This document shows, in pieces, positions 20,460-61,319 of a stretch of DNA of 64,000 bases. Each line of letters starts with the position of its first letter. Position 1 is the first letter of the stretch. Location of the stretch: NCBI GenBank assembly GCA_963580285.1, contig OY757023.1, forward strand, positions 88,685,108 to 88,749,107, written 5' to 3'. The notes below the pieces were generated by a model. It worked only from the letters and a program-made list of their open reading frames with translations, was not told the DNA's origin and did no database searches. The position numbers were made by a program, and so were the translations under genes. The DNA comes from Lucinisca nassula (Eukaryota > Mollusca > Bivalvia > Lucinida > Lucinidae).

Positions 20460-20627
20460 TAGGTTCCCTTTGGTGTCTCTGGTTGGAGCCGCGGCTAATT
20501 GTATCGATTCCTGATCATTGCCTTCACTTCTGTTTTGGATATTCTTAGTCACCACCTGTTTGTGAAAGAGCTGCTGACTCGGTTTACCCGATGTCCGTTT
20601 TGTTTACTGTCGTCACTTCATGCCTTC
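20460..20627 (+). mobile_element. Naiad 3'-end fragment
   Basis: TTCCCTTTGGTGTCTCTGG and TTGTATCGATTCCTGATCA mark the Naiad 3' end, in the same orientation as the copy that follows. The tail GTCACCACCTGTTTGTGAAA recurs inverted near 23,160. It directly precedes the truncated Naiad at 20,628. Confidence 0.65.
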
Positions 20628-21396
20628 AGACCTCATTTTGTCGCTTTCCATTGATAACCAATCTGATATTATTGAAGCTTTTAGCTCTACTTCTAGATAT
20701 TTAGATGATTTATTAAATATTGATAATACCTATTTTGATGGTTTGATCAGTCAGATTTACCCCCTAGAACTTCAGTTAAATAAAGCAAATTCTTCTGATA
20801 CCGAGGCCCCGTTTTTGGATTTACATGTATCTATTGTAGATGGATTTGTTTCGTGCAAAATTTATGATAAACGCGATGACTTTGATTTTGAGATTGTAAA
20901 TTTTCCTTTTTTGGATGGTGATGTTCCTCGTGCGCCATCCTATGGCGTTTATATTTCGCAATTAATTCGATTTGCTAGAGTGTGTAGTCATTTAACTGAC
21001 TTCAACACGCGTAATAAATTATTAACGGCTAAACTCCTTAATCAGGGTGATCGGTACCATAAACTACGCAAAGCCTTTTCAAAATTTTATAGACGCCATT
21101 CTGATTTAATTTCAAAATTCAATATGTGACTTAAATCTCTTCTGTAACAAGGTCTATCGGAACCCGAATTTTATGGTGACTTAGTATATAAATTCAGAAA
21201 AATATATAACCGCAATGACTTCAGCACCCAATTTCGTAAAATCATTCTTCGATATAAAAAGATTGGGTACAACATGGATATTATACGACATACTGCATGC
21301 ATGGTAGTTAACCCAATCACGGTTGGCAACTTTGCTTCCCTCTTTAATTGCACGCCGGTGGGTCAGGCCTCAGATTCTATGACGGCTCCAACGTAA
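20628..21396 (+). pseudogene. Naiad reverse transcriptase C-terminal part, broken
   Basis: The frame carries SRYLDDLLNI, the YxDD catalytic loop, near 20,695, then LEAPFLDL-type and SQLIRFARVCSHLTDFNTRN segments, all matching the full-length protein. A TGA at 21,127 replaces Gly of FNIGLK and a TAA soon after replaces Gln of LLQQG, so these are decay mutations and unlike the four TGAs of the intact copy. The original stop TAA is at 21,394. It is non-functional; the endonuclease, linker and first RT half are absent. Confidence 0.88.
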
Positions 21397-25942: not shown

Positions 25943-25956
25943 AATCAGACTGTATC
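25943..25956. repeat. LINE target-site duplication, 5' copy
   Basis: AATCAGACTGTATC, repeated exactly at 29,680-29,693 on the other side of the LINE. Confidence 0.9.
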
Positions 25957-33764: not shown

Positions 33765-36756
33765 AAAAGTAGAAGTAAAACAAAGATCAGGAATCGATAC
33801 AATTAACTTACTCCACCAATCAAAGACACCAAAGGGAAAGAAACACAAACATGAAGCGACCAGACCATAATGGAAACCTAAACAAAGGAAGGCCATAAGG
33901 ACAGTTACTTTCCCATTAAATGGCCAAATGGCCATCCAAAATAAAAGACACAAGTGATACACACAGTAAGTAACAAACAACAACACAAATAAACCTTCAC
34001 AGAAGAACCGCCTTGGTACGGTCAGTGGAAAGAATTCATCTGGGGGGCTTAAATCGATTTTACATGGCCATAATCCTCGCCCTTACCTCTGTCGCGGTAT
34101 ACACTAATTTTGTTTAGTCCGCATGGAGGCTTCCTAACTCATCAGTGTAACATCTCCGAGAACATACAAATAAAAAAACTACAGAGATGAAACACGGTTG
34201 AGGACTTGCCAGCATACAACAACAGAATTGCTGGAGCAAAAGAAAACCAACAGTTAGACTCCGAGGGGCTCGACCAAAGACGGAGCACAAGGCGCCAACC
34301 AACACAAAGACTACTACAATAAAATAAAATTCCATTTATGCTTTTACGTTGGAACCGTCATATAATCTTAAGCCCGACCCACCTGTGTGCAATCAAAGAG
34401 GGAAGCAAAGTTGCCAACCGCGACTGGGCCAACCACCATGCATGCAGTCTGTTTTATAACATTTATGTTGTACCCAATCTTTATATATCGACGAACGATT
34501 TTACGAAATTGGGTACTAAAGTCATTACAGGCACGTATTTTTCTAAATTTATACACCAAGTCACCACAGAACTCGGGTTACGACGGGCCATTCTGCAGAA
34601 GCGTTTTAAGTCCAACACCGAACCCTGAAACCAAACCAGAACGACGTCAATAAAACTTAGAAAAGGCTTTACGTAGTTTATGAAACCGACACCCCCGACC
34701 AAGAAGTTTAGCGGTTAATAATTTATTACGAGTGTTGAAGTCGGACACATGACAAGACACTCCAGCGAATCGAATTAACTGCGAAATATAAACCCCGCAC
34801 GATGTCGCACGAGGAACATCACCGTCCAAAAAAAAGGAAAATTTAAAATCTCGAAATCAAAATCATCACGTTTATCATAAACTTTGCAAGAAACAAATCC
34901 ATCTACAATAGATAAATATAAATCCAAAAAGGGGGCCTTGGTATCAGAGGAATTTGCCTTGTTTAACTGAAGTTCTAGGGGATAAATCCGACTGATCAAA
35001 CCATCAAAGTAAATATTGTCAATATTTAATAAATGATCTAAATATCTGGAAGTAGAACTAAATGTTTCAATTATTTCAGACTGGATACCAATTGAAAGCG
35101 ACAACATGAAGTCTCCCCTAAAACAACACAAGAGGCGTGCAACACGCACCCACCGGAACACCCACAGTCCGTCCAAATAACTTAGTACCGAATCTAATAC
35201 AAACATTGTCAAGTAGAAAGGTGAGAGCATCATACACTTTCTGACATGACCAAAGTGCATAATTCTTATGCTCTTTAGAAGTGAAAAATGCATTTCTGAC
35301 ATTACATGCAAGATAGAGAGAATCTTCTCTGTGAAAAGCCCATCCAACCAAACCACCAAGTCCTCCTTTTATAAGATTATGAAGAGGAAGTGTAGTGCAG
35401 AGAGTGGAAAAATCGTAAGTAGACAGACTTGAAGCACGAAAACGTCTGGATTTCAATTTATTTAAAACCTCATTCGAATTTTTAATAGACCAAAACAGAT
35501 TTCTTCCTGATCTTTATCACAATATTTAATCACATGCGTTTTAATAGCAGTAAGACAGGAAGTTAATAATTTAGAAAGTTCAGTGGTAGTGCAAGAGCTA
35601 GAATTTGCATTAAACTGTGCTTTGTAAGGTCTTTTATGAAACTTTGGTAACCAGTATAGCGTAGGAAGCTTATCTTGGCCTTCTGTAACACACACAGCAA
35701 ACTTGGTGGCTGAATGACAAATATGTTCATCTGCTATACCTTTCTCTTCAGCTAAAGGCTGAAGTTCACAGGCCTTAGTACCACCAAGCTCCTGCTTAAG
35801 TGCGTTAACATAGTGGAGCCGTCACACAACGACGACGTTGTTAGCGGCCTTGTATGCAGGGGCCAATACAAACTTATTATGAAATTCTTGAATACCTAGT
35901 TTAAGATTACGTAAAGACGTCTTAGGCTTAGGAGGTAATAAGTTAGTGTATTGAGAATAGAAAGAAATGCGTTTATTCACTAGTTTTAAAATGCTAAGTT
36001 TCCAGTCCTTAAGGGCTTTATGCTCAACATACTCTCGCTTACACCATCGATTACCGAATTCATTTAAGGCAGCAGCGATTTCATCTCTACATTAACTGAA
36101 ATCAATTTTAGAAGGAAACCGATATTTCGGTCCTTTAGAAATTATATTCCTTATCCTAGAATCAGGAATAATTTTCAAATTGCCAGTAATTACATGACCA
36201 TCAGCAGGATAGCAATGCACTGAGTTTTTACAATCACAAGAATCAGGAGTATTAGTATCAATATCAAGATCTGAAACAAGTTTATTGAAATTAAAATTGA
36301 TAGATCTAACAGGTTTGTTATATTTATAGCAAATTATAGGTGTTTCAGTATTTTGAAAATAAGCAGGAATGGAAGAAAGTACCGAGCTCTCAAGAAAAAT
36401 ACTGGGCAAATCTATAAAATCCATACCCTTATTAATGAAGGATATTTTGAAGAAATGGCGTTTATGATTAATTTCAGAATCAATGTAAGGACGGAGAGTA
36501 TGCTGAGTATAGCCTCTCGTTAAGAGAGCCGCATCATATAACTGATTAGAACTATCGTAGAATTTATTCGCCTCGGTGTCCAGAAGACGTAAAACAGAAG
36601 CGGGCAATGAACTTAGAAATGAAAGCAAAGTGTGGCGTCCATCATTTAATAATATAACTGACAGTCACTTCAGTCTGGTATTGTTTCGTTTAAAAGAACG
36701 TAATTTACGTTTATAGTTACCATTTTTCCTGGTGCCGTGAGATCTAGTCTGTCCAG
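33765..36756 (-). mobile_element. diverged, 5'-truncated Naiad Penelope-like element
   Basis: It is collinear with 47,314-50,32x of the full-length copy over about 3 kb, with scattered substitutions and small indels. The 3' end is the same AAGTAGAAGTAAAAC terminus. It stops in the C-terminal tail of the endonuclease (RSHGTRKNGN). There is no tandem partner. Confidence 0.92.
34344..36756 (-). pseudogene. Naiad linker and reverse transcriptase, broken
   Basis: Reading the minus strand, it has the end of the endonuclease, the linker with its CDC motif (near 36,230), the RT start (LPTLYWLPKFHKRPYKAQF) and later RT segments. The YxDD loop region reads SRYLDHLLNI, so the second Asp is His. Deletions (for example about 10 bp near 35,512) and a TAA at 36,092 break the frame. 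Two TGAs, at 36,665 and 35,822, sit at the same places as TGAs three and four of the intact copy, so those codons predate the split. It is non-functional. Confidence 0.88.
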
Positions 36757-41550: not shown

Positions 41551-41836
41551 TAATATGAAATAGGCGCGACCTAACTGCAACCAACCGTTTTGATGCTTAC
41601 AAACCTCCCATTTTGTGCATTCAGTATTAGGTGGGTCTTTTTGAAATGAAAAGGTTTTCTAAATGGACATTTGCAGAAGTACCACAAAATTCCTATATTA
41701 AGACCTCCTTTTGGACTGTTCTAAAGTTTAACAGTCTCAAAGGTGGTCGACAGCAACAAAGTTAAACTTGAACTGTGCAGTAGATAGTTGACCGAAAAAA
41801 AAAAATAAGATCAGCAGTCGATGGTATACCATCGCA

Positions 41837-43074
41837 AATACCCGCGTTTTCTATGAGTAACACAAATGACTATGTATTAGCAAGCCAAAACTGTATGTAA
41901 GTTAAAAAAAAAAGTTGTAAAGAACATTCTAACTGATAAGCAAAAATTCAGAAGTGTAACTCTTATAGTTTAGAAGATATGGCAAAGTCATACTTTTTGA
42001 CCTTTAACCTTGGGGTTATGTTGAGGTCCACCTAAAGTATCCCAATTTATTCTATATTCCAACAGCCATCAAATAACCAAGTTTCAGAAGTGTAACTCTA
42101 ATAGTTAGGAAGATATAGCAAAGTCATACTTTTTTACCTTTGACCTTGGGTCGAGGTCACACCAAAAGTAGCCGAAAATATTCTATATTCCAAGGACCAT
42201 CCGATAAGCAAAGTTTCAGAAGTGTAACTCCAATAGTTTAGGAGATATGGCAAATCATAATTTTTGAACTTTGACCTTGGGGTCATGTTGAGGTGAAGGT
42301 CACACCAAAAGTGTCCAAATTTATTCTATCTTCCAAGGGCCATCCAATGACTAAAGTTACAGAAGTGTAACTCTAATAGTTTAGAAGATATGGCAAAATC
42401 ATACTTTTTGACCTTTGACCTTGGGGTCAAGGTCACACCAAAAGTAGCCCGACATATTCTGTATTCCAAGGACCATCCAATAAGCAAAGTTTCAGAAGTG
42501 TAACTCCAATAGTTTAGGAGATATGGCAAATCATAATTTTTTTACCTTTGCCCTTGGGGTCATGTGCAGGTCAAGGTCACACAAAAAGTATCCAGATTTA
42601 TTCTATATTCCAAGGGCCATCCAATAACCAAAGTTTCAGAAGTGTACCTCTAATAGTTTAGAAGATACGGCTAAATCATACATTTTGACCTTTGACCTTG
42701 GGGTCAAGGTCACACCAAAAGTAGTCCAACATATTCTATATTCCAAAGACCATCCAATAAGCAAAGTTTCAGAAGTATATCTCCAATAGTTAAGGAGATG
42801 ACAGATATGACAAATTATGATTTGCCATATTTTTTTACCTTTGACCTTGGGGTCATGTTGAGGTCAAGGTCACCAAAAAGTTGCCCACTGCCATCTACAT
42901 TCCACGTAGGGTCTATCCACATGCAAAGTTTCAAAAGTGTAACTTCAGTAGTTGCAGAGGAGATCCATTTACAAGAAACGTGACGGACAGACAGACCGAC
43001 GGACAGACGGACGCCGGACTCAACTGTGATACGAAAACAATATACCCGATTTTTCCTCGAAAAAGCGGGTATAA
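41837..43074 (+). repeat. TIR-bounded element of ~135-bp tandem units
   Basis: ATACCCGCGTTTTC at the left is inverted at the right (GAAAAAGCGGGTAT). Inside, eight units share TTTCAGAAGTGTAAC at roughly 135-bp spacing. Two unit types alternate: one with GGGGTCATGTTGAGGTCAAG and one with GGGGTCAAGGTCAC, giving a ~270-bp higher-order repeat. It ends with a GACGGACAGACGGACG block. The mirror copy is at 58,141-59,378. Confidence 0.85.
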
Positions 43075-43249
43075 AAAACCACTCCTTCCAGAGAATGGTA
43101 TCGGTATTTAGTAGAACCAGTATTATTTTTGAAAACTGCAGTTGCATCCATACTTTAGGGTAGGGAAGAGTTATTATCTCTGTTCAAGAGATAGAAATGT
43201 CAGAATTCTATCCACCATATTTGCACTATTTGCTGCCACTTTGCCAATA

Positions 43250-43322
43250 TTGGAAAAACAGGTAACCAGACCCTCCCCACTGACCTTGAAGGTCAGGGTG
43301 TTCTGGTTACCTGTTTTTCCAA
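43250..43322. repeat. hairpin, ~33-bp arms
   Basis: TTGGAAAAACAGGTAACCAGA and its inverted partner, with CTGACCTTGAAGGTCAG at the centre. It is mirrored at about 57,893-57,965. Confidence 0.88.
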
Positions 43323-43394
43323 CTTTGATAACCTTCAGACTAGGAACCAGCAGATAATGCAAATAAGGTGAATCTTCCCCCCCCCCCCCCCTCC

Positions 43395-43682
43395 ACCATT
43401 GGGACTTGAAGGAATAAATAGGCTGCATGATGCTTACACGCAAAGCTGAAACCGACCCGCACACAAGTACTGGTAAACTGCTTTGAGGATCTAAGCCTGC
43501 CCAGGCAAAGCAGTGCGAGTCAGACCGTCCATGCTTATAAACCCTATTGGTTTCATTGCGCGGCAGGGCTTGATATGTCATTTTATTTCGATGTTGGGTA
43601 AAAGTCCCACAAAATTGGAAGCAGAGTCACCAAAATGACCTTTACAGTGTTGACGGGGACTTTAAACCTCAAACCAAACATG
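43395..43682 (+). mobile_element. F repeat, near full length
   Basis: Preceded by a poly-C tract (43,378-43,391). Contains CAAAGCTGAAACCGACCCGC, CTAAGCCTGCCCAGGCAAAG and a tail with TTTAAACCTCAAACCAAAC. Confidence 0.82.
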
Positions 43683-43717
43683 CAAAACCTATCCATCTCC
43701 CCAAGGGGCCCCCCATG

Positions 43718-44022
43718 CACCGCCCCACTCCATCGGGGCTTTAAAAAATAGAATGGCTGCATGATGCTTCCACGCAGAGCTGAAACCGACAGCACAGGAG
43801 TACTGCCTGGTTAACGGCTTAGAGGATCTATGCCTGCCTAGGGAAAGCGGTGCAAGTCGGACCGTCCATGCTTATAAACCATATTGGTTTATGGGATACA
43901 AGGCTTTAGATGTCATTTCATCTCAATGTCGAGTAAAAGTAGCACAAAATTGGAAGCAACATTATCAAAATGTCCTATACAGTGTTGATGGGGATGTTAA
44001 ACATCAAATCAAACAAACAAAA
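43718..44022 (+). mobile_element. F repeat, near full length
   Basis: From CACCGCCCCACTCCATCGGGG to GTTAAACATCAAATCAAAC, in tandem with the preceding F copy. Confidence 0.82.
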
Positions 44023-44103
44023 CTCTCAATGGGAATGGAAAATGGTTCTAGAAGACGATCCTTCAGGAATCATGATTCTTCTAGCACACAAGTTACAAGT
44101 ATG

Positions 44104-44190
44104 TCACATTAGGTGTACATTATTACATACACTCAAAAGCCTACACAGTAATTCTGTAATTACGGCATCTCTAACCTGCGCAGGCACAGG
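44104..44190 (-). mobile_element. SINE-A 3' fragment
   Basis: GTGTACATTATTACATACACTC, GCCTACACAGTAATTCTGTA and CTAACCTGCGCAGG match the SINE-A 3' body in reverse. Confidence 0.65.
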
Positions 44191-44787
44191 AAATTCTATA
44201 TCAGAATATAGATAAGACCAATTCAATATCACAGAGTTTGTAGTTGGCCTGTTGATTTGCCCAGTAAACTTACCGAATGTGTAAAAAGTCAAAATACGGG
44301 TCAAAAATAGATCTACGATGCAGTCCAGTAAGATTGCGTACATTGAGTTTTGTTCTTAGTTCTTATATGTGACTTTGTCAAAGCCACCACCACAAACATT
44401 GCAACACTTTCCCTACCAACTATGTGCAATGAAAATTGGTCTCTGAATTTTTAACAAACAGGACAAAGAATTCTTTGAAAAGGGATACCCCCTTGAAATG
44501 GAACTACCAATTTTTCCCCCCAACACGGCACTAAAAAGTTTTAAGCTACTTGAACATGGGGCTTGACTTGAATAAGTTGTTGATTAGTTATTCTGCAATG
44601 TTGTTAGATGCAGTGAGTTTAGATATAAAATATTTGTGCCTTTTTTGAGAAAAATTAAAGTTCTGCGAAACTGGCACAGCTGCAAGTACAAGCTCGTGTT
44701 TTCAAGCCTTTACAAAACTTAATGCTGACGCATGATAATAGTGAAACTGACAATGAGGGATACAGTTTAATACTGAAAATATGCAAG
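44191..44787. other. unassigned part of block A
   Basis: No gene or repeat family is recognised; it is duplicated as part of the arm. Confidence 0.4.
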
Positions 44788-44960
44788 TGTCGGACCCTCC
44801 ATGCTTATATTAAAGCCCTATTGGTTTCATTGGCCAGCAGGGCTTGAGATGTCATTTCAACTCAGTGTCGGATAAAAGTCCAACAAAATTGGAAGCAATG
44901 TCTCCAAAATGACCTTTACGGTGTTGATGGGGATGTTAAACCTCAAATCAAACAAATATT
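44788..44960 (+). mobile_element. F repeat, 3' half
   Basis: From GTCGGACCCTCCATGCTTAT to GTTAAACCTCAAATCAAAC. Confidence 0.8.
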
Positions 44961-45204
44961 TCTATTATTATTTACATAGTAAAGCTACTGCAACATACTG
45001 AAAACAGAAATCCATTTTATAATCAATGAGCTAAAAACATGGATTTTTATGACTTTGGTGGCAGATTTTCAACTACCAGGGTAGACCATTCGGACCAGCC
45101 AGCCACTGATCTCACGCGACCTGACCTGGTCCAGCTTTTCACCAGACAAAATCGGTTGGTCTTGGGTTGGTGTTGATGGGGACTTTACACCTCAAATCAA
45201 CAAA

Positions 45205-45400
45205 CAAAACACTCCTGGTGTACATTACATATACATGTATATACACTCCAGGTTTCGCAGGATGGAGCTGCCTACATAGTTAACAGGCTGTTGTTGTTGA
45301 TGTAATTATGTTAGGGATCTTTAACCTGCACGGGGGATGGTTCTCCCTGCACAGGGGGCCTCCAGTTAACGTCTGGATCCAAAGGATTGTGCCAAAGGCT
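45205..45400 (-). mobile_element. SINE-A fragment
   Basis: GTGTACATTACATATACATG, CTTTAACCTGCACGGGGGATGG and GGGGGCCTCCAGTTAACGTC match the SINE-A body in reverse. The tRNA head is missing. A short F tail precedes it (near 45,170-45,203). Confidence 0.7.
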
Positions 45401-45579
45401 GGTAAAAATGGAAATATTTATTAATTTCTTACAATTTTATTGGTTAAAGAAATTCTTTTTTGCCCTGATGATAGATAAATTTGATAGTTTTTATCATGTG
45501 TACATAGAAAATAAAATAAACATATCAAAATCACCTTTAAGTAAATGATCTTATTTCTTATTTTCTAATGCTTTCTATT

Positions 45580-45849
45580 CATCACGTGAACAAGTCCGTG
45601 AAATGAACACCCCCTAAACCCCACTTTTTATAGAGAAAACTGGGGTTTAAGGGGGTAAACAATATTTTTAATCCAAGACATAGGTTGTGGGTACTCGTTA
45701 GAACCGCCTCGATGAGGCGGTTCTAACGAGCACCCACAACCTATGTTTGTAGTATTTATAAGAAAAATATCGCATATTTTAATCAGAAAAGTAGCCATTT
45801 TGGAGATGTGAAAAAATGCACTATGCCATACGGGCGTGTTATCGTAATG
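45580..45849 (+). mobile_element. M2 hairpin MITE, complete
   Basis: Ends CATCACGTGAACAAGTCCG and GGGCGTGTTATCGTAATG. The centre is a perfect palindrome: GTTGTGGGT(A/G)CTCGTTAG arms around TCGATGA. The mirror copy is 55,369-55,638. Confidence 0.88.
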
Positions 45850-45912
45850 TTTAGATTAACTTTACTAAAGGAAATGACCGAAATGTACCAAAAAGGTAAA
45901 AAAACGTATTAT

Positions 45913-46036
45913 TACTGCTAGCTGGAATTAAAGAAATATAAAAATTGATTGTTATATTTGCTAACATGTATGTGTGTATTAAAATGATAAAGAAAAAATG
46001 TTATTTTTTACTTTTCTTTAATTCCAGCTAGCAGTA
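45913..46036 (+). mobile_element. 124-bp MITE with 24-bp terminal inverted repeats
   Basis: TACTGCTAGCTGGAATTAAA at the left and its complement at the right; AT-rich interior. A second copy at 46,687-46,810 arose with the 774-bp tandem duplication, not by transposition. Mirror copies lie in the other arm. Confidence 0.88.
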
Positions 46037-47133
46037 AACAAAATTTTCTTCCATTTCGGTCCTTTTCCGTCGTTTTCTTTAATTAAGTCAAACTAAAAAT
46101 AGAAACAATTAAAAAGTAAGAAAATTGATCATTTAAGGTAGTCTCATATGTTTGTTATATTTTTCTATGGAGAAGTGATGACAATAATCAAATTCAAATA
46201 TTTTCAGTACAAAAAGAAGTACTTTAAACTGTAGATTTGCAAGGATTTAAGAAATATAATCATTTTTTCCGGCCCTGGCTTTTATACCCTGGATTTCGGA
46301 AAACGGTTATTTCAAGAAAAGAGAGATAAACCTTCGTGCAGTTATCAAATATGTTATTTATAATAATTTGATACCCAATTGACCTAGATCTATATCTTAA
46401 TTAGAACAATAGACAAAATATAAAATCTTTGGATCAGCATTTTTTGGCCCGGCCTTGGCTTTTATACCCGACCGTAAAATTATGACTAAATCTTCAGTGA
46501 TTACTAATTGATTATCGATCGCAATGACAGGAATGATAATTGATTATCTTTTCAGCTTTGATTAGCCAGCCCTACTGCCAGGCTACTGGGAGGGTCTTCT
46601 GATGTTCAAAGAGAACATAACCCTGGGTTTACGCCCTGGGGTGGGGCTAGGGTCAAATTCGAGAGTACCTTTGTAAAGTTTTTTATTACTGCTAGCTGGA
46701 ATTAAAGAAATATAAAAATTGATTGTTATATTTGCTAACATGTATGTGTGTATTAAAATGATAAAGAAAAAATGTTATTTTTTACTTTTCTTTAATTCCA
46801 GCTAGCAGTAAACAAAAGTTTCTTCCATTTCGGTCCTTTTCCGTCGTTTTCTTTAATTAAGTCAAACTAAAAATAGAAACAATTGAAAAGTAAGAAAATT
46901 GATCATTTAAGGTAGTCTCATATGTTTGTTATATTTTTCTATGGAGAAGTGATGACAATAATCAAATTCAAATATTTTCAGTACAAAAAGTACTTTAAAC
47001 TGTAGATTTGCAAGGATTTAAGAAATATAATCATTTTTTCCGGCCCTGGCTTTTATACCCTGGATTTCGGAAAACGGTTATTTCAAGAAAAGAGAGATAA
47101 ACCTTCGTGCAGTTATCAAATATGTTATTTATA
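45913..47133 (+). repeat. 774-bp tandem duplication, second unit cut off
   Basis: The unit starting TACTGCTAGCTGG at 45,913 restarts at 46,687. The second unit stops at 47,133 where the inverted S begins. In the other arm (minus strand from about 55,305) the second unit runs on through S, showing which junction is original. Confidence 0.88.
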
Positions 47134-47313
47134 GCAACCAACCAACGAGTTGTTTGCCGCCGAAGGCGGCAAACAACGAGAGTTGGTTGCTTAACGGTAA
47201 CACGTGTATTTATTTATGAACATACCCCACCCATTCAAACCTCAAAAGCCAACAGGACTAAGGCCAAAAATTTCTTCGTACTTCCGGTTTTACAGCTTCC
47301 TGTTGCCGGAAGT
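47131..47313 (+). repeat. block S, left piece
   Basis: The reverse complement is 60,692-60,877. It starts with a 59-bp hairpin and ends at the Naiad insertion. Confidence 0.92.
47133..47191. repeat. 59-bp hairpin at the duplication breakpoint
   Basis: AGCAACCAAC and GTTGGTTGCT form the base, and TTGTTTGCCGCC/GGCGGCAAACAA the upper stem around GAA. The inverted-duplication junction lies at its base. The mirror copy is 60,817-60,875. Confidence 0.92.
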
Positions 47314-47892
47314 AAAGTAGAAGTAAAACAAAGATCAGGAATTGATACAATTAACTTACTCCACCCATAAAAGACACCAAAGGGAAAGAAATACAAACAT
47401 TAAGCGACCAGACCATAATGGAAACCTAAACAAAGGAAGGCCATAAGGACAGTTACTTTCCCACAAAATGGCCATATGGCCATCCAAAATTAAAAGACAC
47501 AAGTGATACACACACTAAGTAACAAACAACAACATAAATAAATCGCCACAGAAGAGCCGCCTTGGAACGGTCAGTGGAAGATTTCCACTGGGGGGCTTAA
47601 ATCGATTTTACGTGGCCACAATCCTCGCCCTTACTTCCGTCGCGATTTAGACAAATAATTTGTTCAGTCCGCATGAAGGCCTCCTAACTCATCAATGCAA
47701 CATCTCCGTGAACACAAAAATCAAAGAACCACAGAGGTGAGACAACGGTGAGGACTCGACAGCAAGAAACCACTGAAATGCTGGAGCAAAAGAAAACCAA
47801 CAGTTAGACTCCGATGGGCCCGACCAGAGACAGAGCATCAGGCACCAACCAACATTACCTTGAATTAGATCTCTCTAATTCTCAATAAGCCT

Positions 47893-50800
47893 TTACGTTG
47901 GAGCCGTCATAGAATCTGAGGCCTGACCCACCAGCGTGCAATTTAAGAGGGAAGCAAAGTTGCCAACCGTGATTGGGTTAACTACCATGCATGCAGTCTG
48001 TCGTATAATATCCATGTTGTACCCAATCTTTTTATATCGAAGAATGATTTTACGAAATTGGGTGCTGAAGTCCTTGCGGTTATATATTTTTCTGAATTTA
48101 TATACTAAGTCACCATAAAATTCGGGTTCCGATAGACCTTGTTGCAGAAGAGCTTTAAGTCCAATATTGAATTTTGAAATTAAATCAGAATGGCGTCTAT
48201 AAAATTTTGAAAAGGCTTTGCGTAGTTTATGGTACCGATAACCCTGATTGAGGAGTTTAGCCGTTAATAATTTATTACGAGTGTTGAAGTCAGTTACATG
48301 ACTACACACTCTAGCAAATCGAATTAATTGCGAAATATAAACGCCATAGGATGGCGCACGAGGAACATCACCATCCAAAAAAGGAAAATTTACAATCTCA
48401 AAATCAAAGTCATCGCGTTTATCATAAATTTTGCACGAAACAAATCCATCTACAATAGATAGATGTAAATCCAAAAACGGGGCCTCAGTATCAGAAGAAT
48501 TTGCTTTATTTAACTGAAGTTCTAGGGGGTAAATCTGACTGATCAAACCATCAAAATAGGTATTATCAATATTTAATAAATCATCTAAATATCTAGAAGT
48601 GCAGCTAAAAGCTTCAATAATTTCAGATTGGTTATCAATGGAAAGCGACAAAATGAAGTCTCTTTCATAACAATACAAGAACAGATCAGCCACAAGAGGT
48701 GCGCAATTAGTACCCATCGGAATACCCACAATTTGTCTAAATAACTTAGTACCGAATCTAATATAAATATTGTCAAGTAGAAAGGTGAGGGCATCACACA
48801 CTTTCTGACATGACCAAAGTGTATAATTCTTATGCTCTTTAGAAGTGAAAAATGCATTTCTGACATTACATGCAAGATAGAGAGAATCTTCTCTGTGAAA
48901 AGCCCATTCAATTAAATCATTAAGCTTTTCTTTTATAAGATTATGAGGAAGTGTAGTGTAAAGAGTGGAAAAATCGTAAGTAGACAGACTAGAAGCACGA
49001 AAATGTCTGGATTTCAATTTATTTAAAACCTCATTCGAATTTTTTATAGACCAAAACAGATTTCTTCCTGATCTTTCAAAGACTTTATCACAATATTTAA
49101 ATACATGCGTTTTAATAGCAGTAAGACAGGAAGTTAATAATTTAGAAAGTTCAGTGGTAGTGCAAGAGCTAGAATTTGCAATAAACCGTGCTTTGTAAGG
49201 TCTTTTATGAAGTTTTGGTAACCAGTATAGCGTAGGAAGCTTGTCTTGGCCTTCGTTAACACACACAGCAAACTTGGTGGCTGAAAGACAAACATGTTTA
49301 TCTACTATAGCTCTCTCTTCAGCTAAAGGCTGAAGTTCATAGGCCTTAGTACCACCAAGCTCCTGCTTAAGCGTGTTAACATAGTGGAGCCGTCACACAA
49401 CGACGACGTTGTTAGCGGCCTTGTCTGCAGGGGCCAAAACAAACTTCTTATGAAATTCTTGAATACCTAGTTTAAGATGACGTAAAGACGTCTTGGGCTT
49501 AGGAGGTAATAAGTTAGTATTTTGAGAATAGAAAGAAATGCGTTTATTCACTAGTTTTAAAATGCTAAGTTTCCAGTCCTTAAGGGCTTTATGCTCAACA
49601 TACTCTCGCTTACACCATCGATTACCGAATTCATTCAAGGAAGCAGCGATTTCATCTCTACATTTACTGAAATCAATTTTAGAAGGAAACCGATATTTCG
49701 GTCCTTTAGAAATTATATTCCTTATCCTAGAATCAGGAATAATTTTCAAATTGCCAGTAATTACATGACCAGCAGCAGGATAGCAATACTTTGAGTTTTT
49801 ACAATCACATGAATCAGGAGTATTAGTATCAATATCAAGATCTGAAACAAGTTTATTGAAATTAAAAATGATAGATCTAACAGGTTTGTTATATTTATAG
49901 CAAATTATAGGTGTTTCAGTATTTTGAAAATAAGCAGGAATGGAAGAAAGCACCGATCTCTCACGGAAGATACTGGGCAAATCTATAAAATCCATACCCT
50001 TATTAATGAAGGATATTTTGAAGAAATGGCGTTTATGATTAATTTCAGAATCAATGTAAGGACGGAGAGTATGCTGAGTATAGCCTCTAGTTAAGAGAGC
50101 CGCATCATATAACTGATGATAACTATCGTAGAATTTATTCGCCTCGGTGTCCAGAAGACGTAAAACAGAAACGGGTAATGAACTTAAAAATGAAAGCATA
50201 GAGTGGCGTCCATGATTTAATAATATAATTGACAGTCACTTCAGTCTAGTATTGTTTCGTTTAAACGCACGTGATTTACGTTTAAAGTTACCATTTTTCC
50301 TGGTGCCGTGAGATCTAGTTCTGCGTTTTCGACATTCCAGGAGTGAAAAAATATCAAAGTCCGGCATTCTGGAAATATTACCCTCATGATAAATGTTGTC
50401 ATTAAATCCCAGTGGAAAAGGGGTCTGTAAAAATTTAATCCATTTTAGTTCAGCTTCATGTCTTTTGATTATTTTGAATCTAGATGTAGAATTTGCATCG
50501 TAATAAAGTTTTTCCACTGGTTGTATAACAATGTTATTTACAGAATGACCTGTACGTCGAAAGTGACGGTACAAGAAAGTGTCAGTTTTCTTAGGCTTAC
50601 TCATTCTACGATAATGCTCGTTCAATCTAGTTTTAAGCATGCGGTTAGTTTGACCGACGTACTGCATATTACAGTTTGCAGCACGTCAAGTAATTAGATA
50701 AATTAAATCTGTAGACTGTCATGTCAAATCAGACATGTTAACTACAGAGAAGCGTCTACCGTTTACAGATGAAGTAACAGTAGACGCGGTGCTTAAATGC

Positions 50801-51117
50801 GAACAACATCTGCACCTCTTGGCATTGCACTTAGAAATACTAGGATACATTCCACTTCTTTTCCACGGATTAGTATATTTTCGAAGGATGGGCGATTTTA
50901 GAGGAGATAGTCTTATACGAAGACTACTCCCAAAAACATTGGTATTGCCTGCTCCTTTGAGATTAACTGAAGTTACAGAAGACAAATTTAAGGGTCTAAC
51001 CAATACCGAAGGCAACATAGTATTAAAGTTCTTAATAGAATGGGGAATCCGTACAGAAGAAGCAGAGTGTAACCTAAGGGGTGATATAGATATTTTAAAT
51101 GTATTTGTGATACTCAT
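47893..51117 (-). CDS. Naiad polyprotein: GIY-YIG endonuclease, CxC linker, reverse transcriptase; candidate selenoprotein
   Basis: Start taken at ATG 51,117; an upstream GTG at 51,234 also stays open, so the start is uncertain. That gives 1,074 residues if four TGAs (133, 144, 294, 575) are read through. A Cys-rich segment (KCNAKRCRCC) precedes the endonuclease, whose YVGQT lies at 153-157, with RTGH and ELKWI motifs after it. The linker has CDC at 437-439 and GHVITGNL. The RT shows LPTLYWLPK near 628, DFSTLY at 715-720, GIPMGTNCAP at 798-807 and the catalytic YLDD at 843-846. Domain order is the reverse of canonical Penelope and defines Naiad. There are no frameshifts, TAA or TAG before 47,893. 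Readthrough as selenocysteine fits known clam Naiads; no SECIS was confidently found by eye. Confidence 0.92.
49393..49395 (-). other. in-frame TGA 4 (residue 575), candidate selenocysteine
   Basis: Context NNVVVV-TGA-RLHYVNTL at the start of RT, where NNVVVVC-type sequence is common in related elements. The diverged copy has TGA at 35,822-35,824. Confidence 0.82.
50236..50238 (-). other. in-frame TGA 3 (residue 294), candidate selenocysteine
   Basis: Context NNTRLK-TGA-LSIILLNHGRH, in the link between endonuclease and CxC domain. The diverged copy keeps this TGA at 36,665-36,667. What residue is usual here is not known to me. Confidence 0.75.
50686..50688 (-). other. in-frame TGA 2 (residue 144), candidate selenocysteine
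   Basis: Context IYLIT-TGA-RAANCNMQYVG. It replaces the first Cys of the CCHH motif that is general in these endonucleases; the second Cys (residue 149) is kept. Confidence 0.85.
50719..50721 (-). other. in-frame TGA 1 (residue 133), candidate selenocysteine
   Basis: Context DLT-TGA-QSTDLIYLIT. GIY-YIG domains of Penelope-like elements usually have LTC-S at this spot, so Cys is expected. Confidence 0.82.
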
Positions 51118-51474
51118 TTGGGTTGATAAGGTTGTGATACCGTCAAAACTAAAGCGATGTTCATACCGGTTATTAAATAAATAAATACTGAAGAAGATTC
51201 CTTCGAATTGAAGGAAGGTACAACAAAAGCCCACAAAACACCCCAGTCTACTTAAAGTACAGGGATGTCAAACAAGCAGTTGTTATACAACGAGGAACGA
51301 ACATCGGTTTAATAATGACCTTCAACAGGTATCTAAAGGATGTCAATTAATGGAACAGTGAAAAGCAATTGCATAAGCAAAACCTGAGGATTGGAAAAAT
51401 AAGAGCATTAAATGCATGTACGGGGAGACCTTTTACAGCCGCCACACGGCACAAACAAAACAGCCCTGATATGC

Positions 51475-53055
51475 AAAGTAGAAGTAAAACAAAGATCAGG
51501 AATTGATACAATTAACTTACTCCACCCATAAAAGACACCAAAGGGAAAGAAATACAAACATTAAGCGACCAGACCATAATGGAAACCTAAACAAAGGAAG
51601 GCCATAAGGACAGTTACTTTCCCACAAAATGGCCATATGGCCATCCAAAATTAAAAGACACAAGTGATACACACACTAAGTAACAAACAACAACATAAAT
51701 AAATCGCCACAGAAGAGCCGCCTTGGAACGGTCAGTGGAAGATTTCCACTGGGGGGCTTAAATCGATTTTACGTGGCCACAATCCTCGCCCTTACTTCCG
51801 TCGCGATTTAGACAAATAATTTGTTCAGTCCGCATGAAGGCCTCCTAACTCATCAATGCAACATCTCCGTGAACACAAAAATCAAAGAACCACAGAGGTG
51901 AGACAACGGTGAGGACTCGACAGCAAGAAACCACTGAAATGCTGGAGCAAAAGAAAACCAACAGTTAGACTCCGATGGGCCCGACCAGAGACAGAGCATC
52001 AGGCACCAACCAACATTACCTTGAATTAGATCTCTCTAATTCTCAATAAGCCTTTACGTTGGAGCCGTCATAGAATCTGAGGCCTGACCCACCGGCGTGC
52101 AATTTAAGAGGGAAGCAAAGTTGCCAACCGTGATTGGGTTAACTACCATGCATGCAGTCTGTCGTATAATATCCATGTTGTACCCAATCTTTTTATATCG
52201 AAGAATGATTTTACGAAATTGGGTGCTGAAGTCCTTGCGGTTATATATTTTTCTGAATTTATATACTAAGTCACCATAAAATTCGGGTTCCGATAGACCT
52301 TGTTGCAGAAGAGCTTTAAGTCCAATATTGAATTTTGAAATTAAATCAGAATGGCGTCTATAAAATTTTGAAAAGGCTTTGCGTAGTTTATGGTACCGAT
52401 AACCCTGATTGAGGAGTTTAGCCGTTAATAATTTATTACGAGTGTTGAAGTCAGTTACATGACTACACACTCTAGCAAATCGAATTAATTGCGAAATATA
52501 AACGCCATAGGATGGCGCACGAGGAACATCACCATCCAAAAAAGGAAAATTTACAATCTCAAAATCAAAGTCATCGCGTTTATCATAAATTTTGCACGAA
52601 ACAAATCCATCTACAATAGATAGATGTAAATCCAAAAACGGGGCCTCAGTATCAGAAGAATTTGCTTTATTTAACTGAAGTTCTAGGGGGTAAATCTGAC
52701 TGATCAAACCATCAAAATAGGTATTATCAATATTTAATAAATCATCTAAATATCTAGAAGTGCAGCTAAAAGCTTCAATAATTTCAGATTGGTTATCAAT
52801 GGAAAGCGACAAAATGAAGTCTCTTTCATAACAATACAAGAACAGATCAGCCACAAGAGGTGCGCAATTAGTACCCATCGGAATACCCACAATTTGTCTA
52901 AATAACTTAGTACCGAATCTAATATAAATATTGTCAAGTAGAAAGGTGAGGGCATCACACACTTTCTGACATGACCAAAGTGTATAATTCTTATGCTCTT
53001 TAGAAGTGAAAAATGCATTTCTGACATTACATGCAAGATAGAGAGAATCTTCTCT
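51475..53055 (-). mobile_element. 5'-truncated Naiad copy in tandem (pseudo-LTR)
   Basis: It is the 3' 1,581 bp of the element, nearly identical to 47,314-48,894 (one visible coding difference, Pro for Leu near the C-terminus). It is cut at residue codons REDSLYL of RT. It abuts the full-length copy head-to-tail on the minus strand. Confidence 0.95.
52054..53055 (-). pseudogene. Naiad reverse transcriptase, 5'-truncated
   Basis: The frame enters from flanking S sequence (the first 11 residues are not Naiad) and continues from REDSLYLACN through GIPMGTNCAP and YLDD to the normal stop. It lacks the endonuclease, linker and first RT motifs, so it cannot act alone. No internal stop is present, which agrees with a recent origin together with the full-length copy. 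Confidence 0.92.
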
Positions 53056-54085
53056 GATTGGATAAAACTTGAACTTCCTTGTTACCATGGACGCACGTTC
53101 ATCTTTTCGAAATAAACAAACTTGGCTGTGCTACATCAACTCACAATACAGCTTTTTCCCGTTTAACAGCTACATCTAATTCAATGATAAAAACGTGTCT
53201 TCTTTACCCTTTCGCTGGTATATTCCACTGCATGAGGTAGTACTACACATACAGTGTCACAGACCGTGTCAAAACTAATAGCCGTTAGATTTGGCGAGAA
53301 GAAGTAAACAAAAGTTTTCCTGCTGTGATGAGTGAATAAAATAATACAGTAGGTACATTTTTCTTGAAACATCTTGCTTAAAAATTGGTGTTTCAGTTCA
53401 ATGTACCTGTTGTTAAAATACAGCCAACAAAGCTCAGTGAGGATTTTTTCCACTGCAGTCGAAGAAAATCAGGGCCGGACTCTAGCTCTTGTCGAAAATA
53501 AGCATGCAGCTACCAGGCTTCTAGCTCGAGATAGTACATGAAAGAAGAAAACTCTGCACACTGATGGCCAGAATCACAGCAATAGGTGAATTGGGATGCA
53601 AACATCTTGTTCAAACTTTGGTGTTTCATTTCAAAGTACCTCTTGTTTAAACAAAGCAGCATTGGAGGTCACAGGAGTGAATTGTCTTGGAATCTCAGAA
53701 GACACTCCCAGGTATCCAAGTTGTAAATAAGAATGCTTTGTGGTGAGTGACTGTTTCAAAAAACTTTACAAAGGTATTCTCGAATTTGACCCTAGCCCCA
53801 CCCCAGGGCGTAAACCCAGGGTTATGTTCTCTTTGAACATCAGAAGACCCTCCCAGTAGCCTGGCAGTAGGGCTGGCTAATCAAAGCTGAAAAGATAATC
53901 AATTATCATTCCTGTCATTGCGATCGATAATCAATTAGTAATCACTGAAGATTTAGTCATAATTTTACGGTCGGGTATAAAAGCCAAGGCCGGGCCAAAA
54001 AATGCTGATCCAAAGATTTTATATTTTGTCTATTGTTCTAATTAAGATATAGATCTAGGTCAATTGGGTATCAAATTATTATAAA
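53056..54085 (+). repeat. block S, right piece
   Basis: The reverse complement is 59,663-60,688. It includes two diverged ~220-bp internal units (AACACCAAAGTTTGAACAAG and AACACCAATTTTTAAGCAAG on the minus strand) and a 90-codon minus-strand frame at 53,181-53,453 that is repeated at 60,291-60,563. That frame has no recognisable domain. Confidence 0.92.
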
Positions 54086-57000
54086 TAACATATTTGATAA
54101 CTGCACGAAGGTTTATCTCTCTTTTCTTGAAATAACCGTTTTCCGAAATCCAGGGTATAAAAGCCAGGGCCGGAAAAAATGATTATATTTCTTAAATCCT
54201 TGCAAATCTACAGTTTAAAGTACTTTTTGTACTGAAAATATTTGAATTTGATTATTGTCATCACTTCTCCACAGAAAAATATAACAAACATATGAGACTA
54301 CCTTAAATGATCAATTTTCTTACTTTTCAATTGTTTCTATTTTTAGTTTGACTTAATTAAAGAAAACGACGGAAAAGGACCGAAATGGAAGAAACTTTTG
54401 TTTACTGCTAGCTGGAATTAAAGAAAAGTAAAAAATAACATTTTTTCTTTATCATTTTAATACACACATACATGTTAGCAAATATAACAATCAATTTTTA
54501 TATTTCTTTAATTCCAGCTAGCAGTAATAAAAAACTTTACAAAGGTATTCTCGAATTTGACCCTAGCCCCACCCCAGGGCGTAAACCCAGGGTTATGTTC
54601 TCTTTGAACATCAGAAGACCCTCCCAGTAGCCTGGCAGTAGGGCTGGCTAATCAAAGCTGAAAAGATAATCAATTATCATTCCTGTCATTGCGATCGATA
54701 ATCAATTAGTAATCACTGAAGATTTAGTCATAATTTTACGGTCGGGTATAAAAGCCAAGGCCGGGCCGGGCCAAAAAATGCTGATCCAAAGATTTTATAT
54801 TTTGTCTATTGTTCTAATTAAGATATAGATCTAGGTCAATTGGGTATCAAATTATTATAAATAACATATTTGATAACTGCACGAAGGTTTATCTCTCTTT
54901 TCTTGAAATAACCGTTTTCCGAAATCCAGGGTATAAAAGCCAGGGCCGGAAAAAATGATTATATTTCTTAAATCCTTGCAAATCTACAGTTTAAAGTACT
55001 TCTTTTTGTACTGAAAATATTTGAATTTGATTATTGTCATCACTTCTCCATAGAAAAATATAACAAACATATGAGACTACCTTAAATGATCAATTTTCTT
55101 ACTTTTTAATTGTTTCTATTTTTAGTTTGACTTAATTAAAGAAAACGACGGAAAAGGACCGAAATGGAAGAAAATTTTGTTTACTGCTAGCTGGAATTAA
55201 AGAAAAGTAAAAAATAACATTTTTTCTTTATCATTTTAATACACACATACATGTTAGCAAATATAACAATCAATTTTTATATTTCTTTAATTCCAGCTAG
55301 CAGTAATAATACGTTTTTTTACCTTTTTGGTACATTTCGGTCATTTCCTTTAGTAAAGTTAATCTAAACATTACGATAACACGCCCGTATGGCATAGTGC
55401 ATTTTTTCACATCTCCAAAATGGCTACTTTTCTGATTAAAATATGCGATATTTTTCTTATAAATACTACAAACATAGGTTGTGGGTGCTCGTTAGAACCG
55501 CCTCATCGAGGCGGTTCTAACGAGTACCCACAACCTATGTCTTGGATTAAAAATATTGTTTACCCCCTTAAACCCCAGTTTTCTCTATAAAAAGTGGGGT
55601 TTAGGGGGTGTTCATTTCACGGACTTGTTCACGTGATGAATAGAAAGCATTAGAAAATAAGAAATAAGATCATTTACTTAAAGGTGATTTTGATATGTTT
55701 ATTTTATTTTCTATGTACACATGATAAAAACTATCAAATTTATCTATCATCAGGGCAAAAAAGAATTTCTTTAACCAATAAAATTGTAAGAAATTAATAA
55801 ATATTTCCATTTTTACCAGCCTTTGGCACAATCCTTTGGATCCAGACGTTAACTGGAGGCCCCCTGTGCAGGGAGAACCATCCCCCGTGCAGGTTAAAGA
55901 TCCCTAACATAATTACATCAACAACAACAGCCTGTTAACTATGTAGGCAGCTCCATCCTGCGAAACCTGGAGTGTATATACATGTATATGTAATGTACAC
56001 CAGGAGTGTTTTGTTTGTTGATTTGAGGTGTAAAGTCCCCATCAACACCAACCCAAGACCAACCGATTTTGTCTGGTGAAAAGCTGGACCAGGTCAGGTC
56101 GCGTGAGATCAGTGGCTGGCTGGTCCGAATGGTCTACCCTGGTAGTTGAAAATCTGCCACCAAAGTCATAAAAATCCATGTTTTTAGCTCATTGATTATA
56201 AAATGGATTTCTGTTTTCAGTATGTTGCAGTAGCTTTACTATGTAAATAATAATAGAAATATTTGTTTGATTTGAGGTTTAACATCCCCATCAACACCGT
56301 AAAGGTCATTTTGGAGACATTGCTTCCAATTTTGTTGGACTTTTATCCGACACTGAGTTGAAATGACATCTCAAGCCCTGCTGGCCAATGAAACCAATAG
56401 GGCTTTAATATAAGCATGGAGGGTCCGACACTTGCATATTTTCAGTATTAAACTGTATCCCTCATTGTCAGTTTCACTATTATCATGCGTCAGCATTAAG
56501 TTTTGTAAAGGCTTGAAAACACGAGCTTGTACTTGCAGCTGTGCCAGTTTCGCAGAACTTTAATTTTTCTCAAAAAAGGCACAAATATTTTATATCTAAA
56601 CTCACTGCATCTAACAACATTGCAGAATAACTAATCAACAACTTATTCAAGTCAAGCCCCATGTTCAAGTAGCTTAAAACTTTTTAGTGCCGTGTTGGGG
56701 GGAAAAATTGGTAGTTCCATTTCAAGGGGGTATCCCTTTTCAAAGAATTCTTTGTCCTGTTTGTTAAAAATTCAGAGACCAATTTTCATTGCACATAGTT
56801 GGTAGGGAAAGTGTTGCAATGTTTGTGGTGGTGGCTTTGACAAAGTCACATATAAGAACTAAGAACAAAACTCAATGTACGCAATCTTACTGGACTGCAT
56901 CGTAGATCTATTTTTGACCCGTATTTTGACTTTTTACACATTCGGTAAGTTTACTGGGCAAATCAACAGGCCAACTACAAACTCTGTGATATTGAATTGG

Positions 57001-59664
57001 TCTTATCTATATTCTGATATAGAATTTCCTGTGCCTGCGCAGGTTAGAGATGCCGTAATTACAGAATTACTGTGTAGGCTTTTGAGTGTATGTAATAATG
57101 TACACCTAATGTGACATACTTGTAACTTGTGTGCTAGAAGAATCATGATTCCTGAAGGATCGTCTTCTAGAACCATTTTCCATTCCCATTGAGAGTTTTG
57201 TTTGTTTGATTTGATGTTTAACATCCCCATCAACACTGTATAGGACATTTTGATAATGTTGCTTCCAATTTTGTGCTACTTTTACTCGACATTGAGATGA
57301 AATGACATCTAAAGCCTTGTATCCCATAAACCAATATGGTTTATAAGCATGGACGGTCCGACTTGCACCGCTTTCCCTAGGCAGGCATAGATCCTCTAAG
57401 CCGTTAACCAGGCAGTACTCCTGTGCTGTCGGTTTCAGCTCTGCGTGGAAGCATCATGCAGCCATTCTATTTTTTAAAGCCCCGATGGAGTGGGGCGGTG
57501 CATGGGGGGCCCCTTGGGGAGATGGATAGATTTTGCATGTTTGGTTTGAGGTTTAAAGTCCCCGTCAACACTGTAAAGGTCATTTTGGTGACTCTGCTTC
57601 CAATTTTGTGGGACTTTTACCCAACATCGAAATAAAATGACATATCAAGCCCTGCCGCGCAATGAAACCAATAGGGTTTATAAGCATGGACGGTCTGACT
57701 CGCACTGCTTTGCCTGGGCAGGCTTAGATCCTCAAAGCAGTTTACCAGTACTTGTGTGCGGGTCGGTTTCAGCTTTGCGTGTAAGCATCATGCAGCCTAT
57801 TTATTCCTTCAAGTCCCAATGGTGGAGGGGGGGGGGGAAGATTCACCTTATTTGCATTATCTGCTGGTTCCTAGTCTGAAGGTTATCAAAGTTGGAAAAA
57901 CAGGTAACCAGAACACCCTGACCTTCAAGGTCAGTGGGGAGGGTCTGGTTACCTGTTTTTCCAATATTGGCAAAGTGGCAGCAAATAGTGCAAATATGGT
58001 GGATAGAATTCTGACATTTCTATCTCTTGAACAGAGATAATAACTCTTCCCTACCCTAAAGTATGGATGCAACTGCAGTTTTCAAAAATAATACTGGTTC
58101 TACTAAATACCGATACCATTCTCTGGAAGGAGTGGTTTTTTATACCCGCTTTTTCGAGGAAAAATCGGGTATATTGTTTTCGTATCACAGTTGAGTCCGG
58201 CGTCCGTCTGTCCGTCGGTCTGTCTGTCCGTCACGTTTCTTGTAAATGGATCTCCTCTGCAACTACTGAAGTTACACTTTTGAAACTTTGCATGTGGATA
58301 GACCCTACGTGGAATGTAGATGGCAGTGGGCAACTTTTTGGTGACCTTGACCTCAACATGACCCCAAGGTCAAAGGTAAAAAAATATGGCAAATCATAAT
58401 TTGTCATATCTGTCATCTCCTTAACTATTGGAGATATACTTCTGAAACTTTGCTTATTGGATGGTCTTTGGAATATAGAATATGTTGGACTACTTTTGGT
58501 GTGACCTTGACCCCAAGGTCAAAGGTCAAAATGTATGATTTAGCCGTATCTTCTAAACTATTAGAGGTACACTTCTGAAACTTTGGTTATTGGATGGCCC
58601 TTGGAATATAGAATAAATCTGGATACTTTTTGTGTGACCTTGACCTGCACATGACCCCAAGGGCAAAGGTAAAAAAATTATGATTTGCCATATCTCCTAA
58701 ACTATTGGAGTTACACTTCTGAAACTTTGCTTATTGGATGGTCCTTGGAATACAGAATATGTCGGGCTACTTTTGGTGTGACCTTGACCCCAAGGTCAAA
58801 GGTCAAAAAGTATGATTTTGCCATATCTTCTAAACTATTAGAGTTACACTTCTGTAACTTTAGTCATTGGATGGCCCTTGGAAGATAGAATAAATTTGGA
58901 CACTTTTGGTGTGACCTTCACCTCAACATGACCCCAAGGTCAAAGTTCAAAAATTATGATTTGCCATATCTCCTAAACTATTGGAGTTACACTTCTGAAA
59001 CTTTGCTTATCGGATGGTCCTTGGAATATAGAATATTTTCGGCTACTTTTGGTGTGACCTCGACCCAAGGTCAAAGGTAAAAAAGTATGACTTTGCTATA
59101 TCTTCCTAACTATTAGAGTTACACTTCTGAAACTTGGTTATTTGATGGCTGTTGGAATATAGAATAAATTGGGATACTTTAGGTGGACCTCAACATAACC
59201 CCAAGGTTAAAGGTCAAAAAGTATGACTTTGCCATATCTTCTAAACTATAAGAGTTACACTTCTGAATTTTTGCTTATCAGTTAGAATGTTCTTTACAAC
59301 TTTTTTTTTTAACTTACATACAGTTTTGGCTTGCTAATACATAGTCATTTGTGTTACTCATAGAAAACGCGGGTATTTGCGATGGTATACCATCGACTGC
59401 TGATCTTATTTTTTTTTTTTCGGTCAACTATCTACTGCACAGTTCAAGTTTAACTTTGTTGCTGTCGACCACCTTTGAGACTGTTAAACTTTAGAACAGT
59501 CCAAAAGGAGGTCTTAATATAGGAATTTTGTGGTACTTCTGCAAATGTCCATTTAGAAAACCTTTTCATTTCAAAAAGACCCACCTAATACTGAATGCAC
59601 AAAATGGGAGGTTTGTAAGCATCAAAACGGTTGGTTGCAGTTAGGTCGCGCCTATTTCATATTA
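54080..59664 (-). repeat. block A, right arm (inverted)
   Basis: Inverted copy of 41,551-47,133. It mirrors the M2 MITE (55,369-55,638), F repeats (about 56,255-56,430, 57,195-57,500, 57,535-57,822), the ~135-bp unit element (58,141-59,378) and two copies each of the 124-bp MITE. Differences from the left arm include GGGCCGGGCC near 54,762 and a shorter G run near 57,825. Confidence 0.95.
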
Positions 59665-60877: not shown

Positions 60878-61319
60878 TAAACGTCCTTAACAATAATTCT
60901 AACAGTAAATTTCTGCAGCTCTTTTACAGCTGTATTGAATAAAGAGTCAAATCAGAAATGTAGAAGTGTCTTTTACACGTTTTTGGTATTTAGGTCATTT
61001 ACATAGGTTGTTAGTTTTTGACGGGTAGCATAAGTAACAGTACACGGTTGTTAATTTTGACGGGTAACATAAGTAAGAGTACAAGGTAACGCCCCAAAGA
61101 CCACAGGGCTTAATGCTGCAAAATTCTTGCATCAGGCTTTTAAGAAAAATATGGGGTAAACCAAATCGAGCCAACGGCTAACATCATATGTTGTGGTTTC
61201 TACGCTCATGGTCATTTCGTATGAAAATTATTAAACAAGCTTCCATAAATTTCATGAGTGTATGATTTTGATTTTATCCCATTGTATGCGGTAAACTCCT
61301 AAATGGGGTACCTTGGAAA
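60878..61319. other. right flank of the inverted duplication
   Basis: A short repeat, TTTTGACGGGTA(G/A)CATAAGTAA, occurs twice (near 61,017 and 61,056). No gene is recognised. Confidence 0.45.

Follow-up and report, generated by a model that had tools for sequence, protein, structure and literature searches.

A young, probably Naiad-type retroelement of Lucinisca nassula with four in-frame UGA codons that are probably read as selenocysteine

A 64,000-nucleotide stretch of the genome of the lucinid bivalve Lucinisca nassula (contig OY757023.1; hereafter the window) carries on its minus strand what is best read as a Naiad-type Penelope-like retroelement with an N-terminal endonuclease, a membership that leans partly on motifs read by eye. 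Its open reading frame (ORF; 47893..51117) begins with an ATG at 51117 and extends over 1074 codons to a TAA at 47895-47893. The internal stops are four, every one a TGA followed by C, at residues 133 (TGA 1, 50719..50721), 144 (TGA 2, 50686..50688), 294 (TGA 3, 50236..50238) and 575 (TGA 4, 49393..49395). Retranslation gives the same frame, the same four TGAs and the same final TAA as an earlier, first-pass annotation of this DNA, whose coordinates were correct. We propose, with a probability of roughly 0.9, that the element was active recently and that it encodes one protein, consisting of a GIY-YIG endonuclease, a CxC linker and a reverse transcriptase (RT), which would be translated through the four UGAs as selenocysteine (Sec), with a selenocysteine insertion sequence (SECIS) around the UAA stop.

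The endonuclease region occupies about residues 139-262 (50332..50703, minus strand, as are all parts of the ORF). It is indicated by a sub-threshold Pfam match to T5orf172 (E 0.072, residues 139-187) and by IYLIT...QYVGQT, which we read by eye as a GIY-YIG-type motif; residue 144, the site of TGA 2, is presumably the position of the first Cys in the GIY-YIG zinc motif. TGA 3 lies between this region and the rest of the protein. Further on, the translation reads SCDC at residues 436-439 (49801..49812), which we take to be the CxC linker between endonuclease and RT. The RT region with the C-terminus (47896..49392) follows immediately after TGA 4; it shows a sub-threshold match to RVT_1 (E 0.081, residues 724-848) and contains YDFSTLYTTLPH, GIPMGTNCAPLVADL and RYLDDLL, picked out by eye as what we take to be RT motifs. 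The order of endonuclease, CxC and RT agrees with Naiads, as do the tandem units, with both domain matches below threshold. A Pfam search with the full-length protein gave no match, a search of solved structures returned nothing but insulin chains (E 0.23 and above), and a single-sequence AlphaFold2 model of residues 84-262 reached a predicted local distance difference test score of 35 and was not used. No relative turned up when viral and prokaryote contigs were scanned for homologues in other species.

The whole insertion (47317..53053, minus strand) consists of a complete unit of 4161 bp (about 47314-51474) preceded, head to tail, by a 5'-truncated second unit (51475-53053), and the repeat spacing in the window is 4161 bp. 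An empty site lies at about 60691, in the opposite arm of an inverted duplication present in the window; there the left flank matches up to 47316 and the right flank from 53054, and the comparison reveals no clear target-site duplication at the 47316/53054 flanks. The inverted duplication around the element is large (41551-60880), with arm pairs of 3081, 1596, 1028 and 688 bp that are 100% complementary, one arm holding the empty site. Full-length pairs spaced 4161 bp apart were also found by the genome search on contigs C17, C13 and C4. Sequence comparison identifies two further copies in the window. The second, at 34328..36751 (minus strand), is diverged and decayed, with additional stops and gaps, and keeps TGA 3 (at 36.7 kb) and TGA 4 (at 35.8 kb). 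The third, at 20599..21393 (plus strand), is 5'-truncated and decayed and is followed by a short-loop form of the hairpin described below.

We searched the genome (2.93 Gb, 696 contigs) with the read-through protein and scored 43 full-length copies among 134,550 first-look candidates. In this set, which was ranked by protein score and therefore favours intact copies, 41 copies have four TGAs and two have three, and no other internal stop, TAA and TAG included, is listed. Of the 43 copies, 33 had their codons read, and these form a subfamily we call A. At residue 133 they have TGA in 32 and TGT in one (L026), at 144 and at 294 TGA in all 33, and at 575 TGA in 32 and TGG in one (L031); TGA at 294 is also present in the diverged L004. 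The mean ORF difference among the first 30 copies is 21.5 of 3225 bases, so the family is young. Another sample was drawn by DNA, as 20 of the 40 places that match the 111-base 3' end, all 99-100% identical there. Fourteen of these places have no alignable piece of residues 125-580. The remaining six read TGA twice and TGT once at 133, TGA three times at 144, TGA three times and AGA once at 294, and TGA twice at 575. Three of the six have a stop outside the four sites (two TGA, one TAA). Two of the six, L046 and L055, are inverted relative to the 3' end used to locate them and are therefore separate insertions, and an additional piece, from L056, has TGA at 575.

A sister subfamily, B, was collected with 211 bases of the diverged L046 fragment: from 1638 candidates 40 matches were scored, L046 itself and 39 others with 93-95% identity to that fragment. 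Its codons were tallied in L046 and the 20 best of the 39, chosen by likeness to L046. At residue 133, B has TGT in 18 of 21 copies (TTT, GGT and CGT in one each), with A as the next base in all 21, and the site thus reads TGT-A in B and TGA-C in A. An exchange of this kind, Cys in B against UGA in A at residue 133, is a classic sign of selenocysteine. Residue 144 is TGA in 21 of 21 copies, followed by C in 18 and by A in three; residue 294 is TGA in all five readable copies, and the two readable codons at 575 are TGA and TCA. Over 73 codons the majorities of A and B differ by 23 synonymous and 9 nonsynonymous changes. From its lower within-family identity, B is probably older than A.

These comparisons bear on several claims of the first-pass annotation. 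It had proposed an alignment of genomic copies, and this finds TGA kept at 133, 144, 294 and 575 in 32, 33, 33 and 32 of the 33 A copies. It had also held that the four TGAs are unlike random decay, with which we agree, as they are shared by copies whereas decayed copies also show stops elsewhere. Old copies do decay; judged from the sequences compared, the four shared TGAs are not such decay. Its suggestion that TGAs stand in place of Cys is borne out at residue 133 by the TGT of subfamily B and of L026; for residues 144 and 575, where the relatives read have no Cys, it leans on motifs.

The changes within the family indicate that the frame has been under selection. Relative to the majority, the 33 copies carry 122 distinct synonymous and 79 nonsynonymous changes and no new stop, where 9.3 would be expected. 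Changes shared by at least two copies, which we take to belong to replicating lineages, number 49 synonymous and 16 nonsynonymous (0.13 of the neutral ratio), and single-copy changes 73 and 63 (0.34 of the neutral ratio); the ranking by score inflates this signal by an unquantified degree, presumably more for single than for shared changes. Before TGA 1 the shared changes are 12 synonymous and none nonsynonymous (p 2.5e-7), between TGA 3 and TGA 4 they are 8 and 6 (p 0.022), and after TGA 4 they are 26 and 7 (p = 2.6e-9). Since the shared changes beyond TGA 3 and TGA 4 are mostly synonymous, the protein downstream has been used.

At the end of the ORF lies a SECIS-like hairpin (47829..47920, minus strand), with ATGA at 47910-47907, TGAT at 47840-47837 and helix arms at 47905-47897 and 47849-47841. 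It matches the Rfam family SECIS_1 (RF00031) on the coding strand at 47920-47829 with 24.1 bits and E 0.2 over 4227 families, equivalent for a single family (0.2 divided by the number of families) to an E of about 5e-5. Its 5' arm is made up of the last codons; the stop UAA and the base after it (UAAAG) supply the unpaired A's, and the untranslated region (UTR) contributes the 3' arm. The ATGA, AAA and TGAT have what we take to be canonical SECIS spacing. Six further loci carry the hairpin at the end of the ORF; the short-loop L018 reaches 30.4 bits, and the remaining five score between 23.4 and 26.5 bits; two Rfam SECIS matches in L005 are A-type hairpins of that locus. Across 11 variants, 97.7% of the inner helix is paired; the whole structure is 94.7% paired as aligned, and shifting it by 1 to 3 columns lowers this to 33-44%. 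The gap between the conserved arms measures 40, 28 or 9 bases in 20 of 27 distinct sequences, the other 7 falling outside the patterns used. The hairpin probably is a working SECIS. As a separate observation, L012, L018, L025, L028 and L029 are young-family copies with a shortened apical loop, suggesting a sub-lineage.

The 5' arm also differs between the young family and its diverged relatives. L037, L057 and L058 would form U-G and G-U wobbles at the places of the young family's C-G and A-U pairs; L058, which is rearranged, is the sole B-type locus that reaches a 3' end and alone represents B in this comparison. Among other diverged copies, the one at 34.3 kb of the window has only the U-G, the L005 copy has U-A, and L039 has only the G.

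The contexts of the stops are uniform. C follows UGA at all four sites in 33 of 33 copies, whereas it follows 4 of the 26 Cys codons and begins 19% of codons; the chance of four UGA-C is 0.0013. The final stop is UAA-A. According to an excerpt of a review (PMC7764779), UAA-A is the most accurate stop in yeast, and UGA-C ranks with the most efficient signals for read-through. The genome contains two strong tRNA-Sec genes with anticodon TCA (80 and 77.4 bits), and a further 29 matches to the model at 41-50 bits, 7 of them above the cut-off of 47. The model also finds matches in 14 of 14 control genomes, above the cut-off in five, and therefore only the two strong genes count. Weaker matches (42-50 bits) form clusters in the genome (G000) on C9 near 84.0-84.4 Mb, on C1 near 147.7 Mb and on C15 near 129-132 Mb, which are perhaps serine tRNA arrays.

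Several observations weigh against the reading that we propose. Neither the tally of the 43 copies nor that of subfamily B is a random sample. In the relatives read, Cys replaces TGA at 133 only and at none of 144, 294 and 575; the other departures are the TGG at 575 in L031, the TCA at 575 in B and the AGA at 294 in one decayed copy of the 3'-end sample. The segment from TGA 1 to TGA 3 has too few shared changes (3 synonymous, 3 nonsynonymous, p 0.22). As for the hairpin, no SECIS match reaches the Rfam gathering score of 35, a gathering-level Rfam scan of the whole window yields no SECIS, and a SECIS match is absent, at E up to 10, from the own ends of the diverged or decayed L037, L057, L058 and L005 (5508) copies. 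A pattern scan finds an equally good core in 38 of 300 shuffled versions of the unit, a result that is not significant over the whole unit; the fold z-score is -1.64, with 10 of 200 shuffles equally stable; and covariation amounts to one compensatory pair (C-G / U-G / U-A), no better than after shuffling (231 of 500). On the other side, the multi-selenocysteine reading already put forward in the first-pass annotation is supported by the retention of the TGAs, by purifying selection before and after them, by the Cys at 133 in the sister subfamily, by the coding-strand hairpin at the ORF end, by the UGA-C contexts and by the genomic tRNA-Sec. The range in which it had proposed to look for a SECIS (47314-47892) drops the 5' arm, as the hairpin starts at 47920 in the coding region.

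Three other explanations can be set against these data. Near-cognate tRNAs might insert Trp, Arg or Cys at the UGA-C codons by ordinary read-through, the hairpin being incidental. All four sites do have this context, efficient in yeast (PMC7764779, excerpt), and TGA 4, as UGA-CGG, is among the contexts of a read-through class that an excerpt of PMC4132726 describes as found mostly in animal viruses; the TGG at 575 and the sub-cut-off hairpin point the same way. However, four leaky stops in series would leave very little full-length protein, the alternative codon at 133 is one for Cys, in a whole subfamily as well as in L026, and the ORF ends in a SECIS-like hairpin in a genome with tRNA-Sec; we consider read-through of this kind very unlikely. 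It is scarcely credible that the family is dead and that an intact relative supplied, in trans, the activity that amplified a source copy carrying decayed stops. Such a history would suit the many truncated or decayed copies, the 14 of 20 3'-DNA places without alignable residues 125-580 among them, and the intact-looking copies were indeed selected through their protein score; but synonymous changes strongly prevail among those shared downstream of TGA 4, A and B both retain TGA at 144 and 294 with majorities that are unlike at 9 of 73 residues, and an internal TAA or TAG is listed in none of the 43 copies.

The remaining explanation accepts selenocysteine and places the SECIS elsewhere, in another hairpin of the 3' UTR, the stop-spanning one being a coincidence. 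The score below the Rfam cut-off and the equal core in 38 of 300 shuffles leave room for it. Yet the unit has no SECIS match besides the stop-spanning hairpin, whose core is also the best of the pattern scan on either strand; the hairpin lies at the ORF end, on the coding strand, its three motifs have what we take to be canonical spacing, and its inner helix stays paired while the apical loop varies by insertions and deletions. We judge a SECIS elsewhere improbable.

If the four UGAs are read as Sec, the stop-spanning SECIS would recruit the host Sec machinery to UGAs that lie as far as about 2.8 kb upstream. With all four decoded, the product would be a single long enzyme able to nick DNA and to prime reverse transcription, and this full-length protein presumably drives insertion. 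Sec, the residue probably inserted at the UGAs, would at position 144 take the place of the first Cys in the endonuclease zinc motif. The UGAs stand in a reportedly leaky context (UGA-C) and the final stop in a reportedly tight one (UAA-A). Termination at single UGAs would release products of 132, 143, 293 or 574 residues. A stop at TGA 3 would free a 293-residue product with the endonuclease region, and selenium status could thereby set the ratio of endonuclease to RT.

Selenocysteine-encoding Naiads are already known as a class, of which the present element would be another member. The selenoprotein Naiads of clams and spiders reportedly have in common with it the order of endonuclease, CxC and RT, the tandem units and several in-frame UGAs read as Sec. 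With canonical endonuclease-bearing Penelope elements it shares Penelope-like RT motifs, a GIY-YIG endonuclease and head-to-tail partial units; it differs from them in its N-terminal endonuclease, in its in-frame UGAs and in that no hammerhead ribozyme is among the Rfam matches up to E 10 in 47300-51520. Our literature search, in a limited collection, found no paper that joins Penelope-like elements with selenocysteine. Spider and clam Naiads are said to have independently evolved multiple selenocysteines (reportedly Craig et al. 2021, Mol Biol Evol).

Among cellular genes, selenoprotein P likewise has several UGAs per message; it is a selenium carrier, whereas here the Sec residues would be distributed over an enzyme of a retroelement. 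An excerpt of PMC8310308 gives the 3' UTR as the location of SECIS elements in cellular messages and also describes the glutathione peroxidase of fowlpox virus, with its SECIS in the coding sequence. Like that viral element, the present hairpin is not confined to the 3' UTR; unlike it, the hairpin straddles a stop codon and would serve four UGAs, in a retroelement and not in a virus.

Elsewhere in the window, a non-LTR (long terminal repeat) retrotransposon frame of 1008 aa lies at 25917-28943 (RVT_1, E 1.1e-33; Exo_endo_phos, E 9.5e-12). Repeat arrays with units about 100-170 bp apart occur at 42148-42835, 58379-59198, 62529-63742 and 5730-6418, one of them with a 282-bp gap. At 11233-11290 an Rfam tRNA model is matched over its positions 8-63 of 71 with 35.1 bits, above the gathering score, and ARAGORN makes no call there.

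The two subfamilies may preserve, in one genome, a stage in the build-up of a multi-selenocysteine retroelement. The older B would have three UGAs and Cys at 133 (TGT-A); the younger, active A would have gained a fourth UGA (TGA-C), turned two wobbles of the SECIS helix into Watson-Crick pairs and used the UAA stop as the apical AA motif, and selenium supply would gate both retrotransposition and the ratio of endonuclease to RT. We hold this scenario tentatively, at slightly less than even odds. Selenocysteines are costly for a genomic parasite to take on. With dozens of near-identical four-UGA copies and a Cys133 sister subfamily in a single genome, the stepwise gain of Sec becomes testable, and the same genome would allow testing whether UGA context and SECIS strength change with that gain and whether transposition is limited by selenium. 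If the stop codon does lie within a SECIS, this would also bear on how SECIS elements function when ribosomes reach them.

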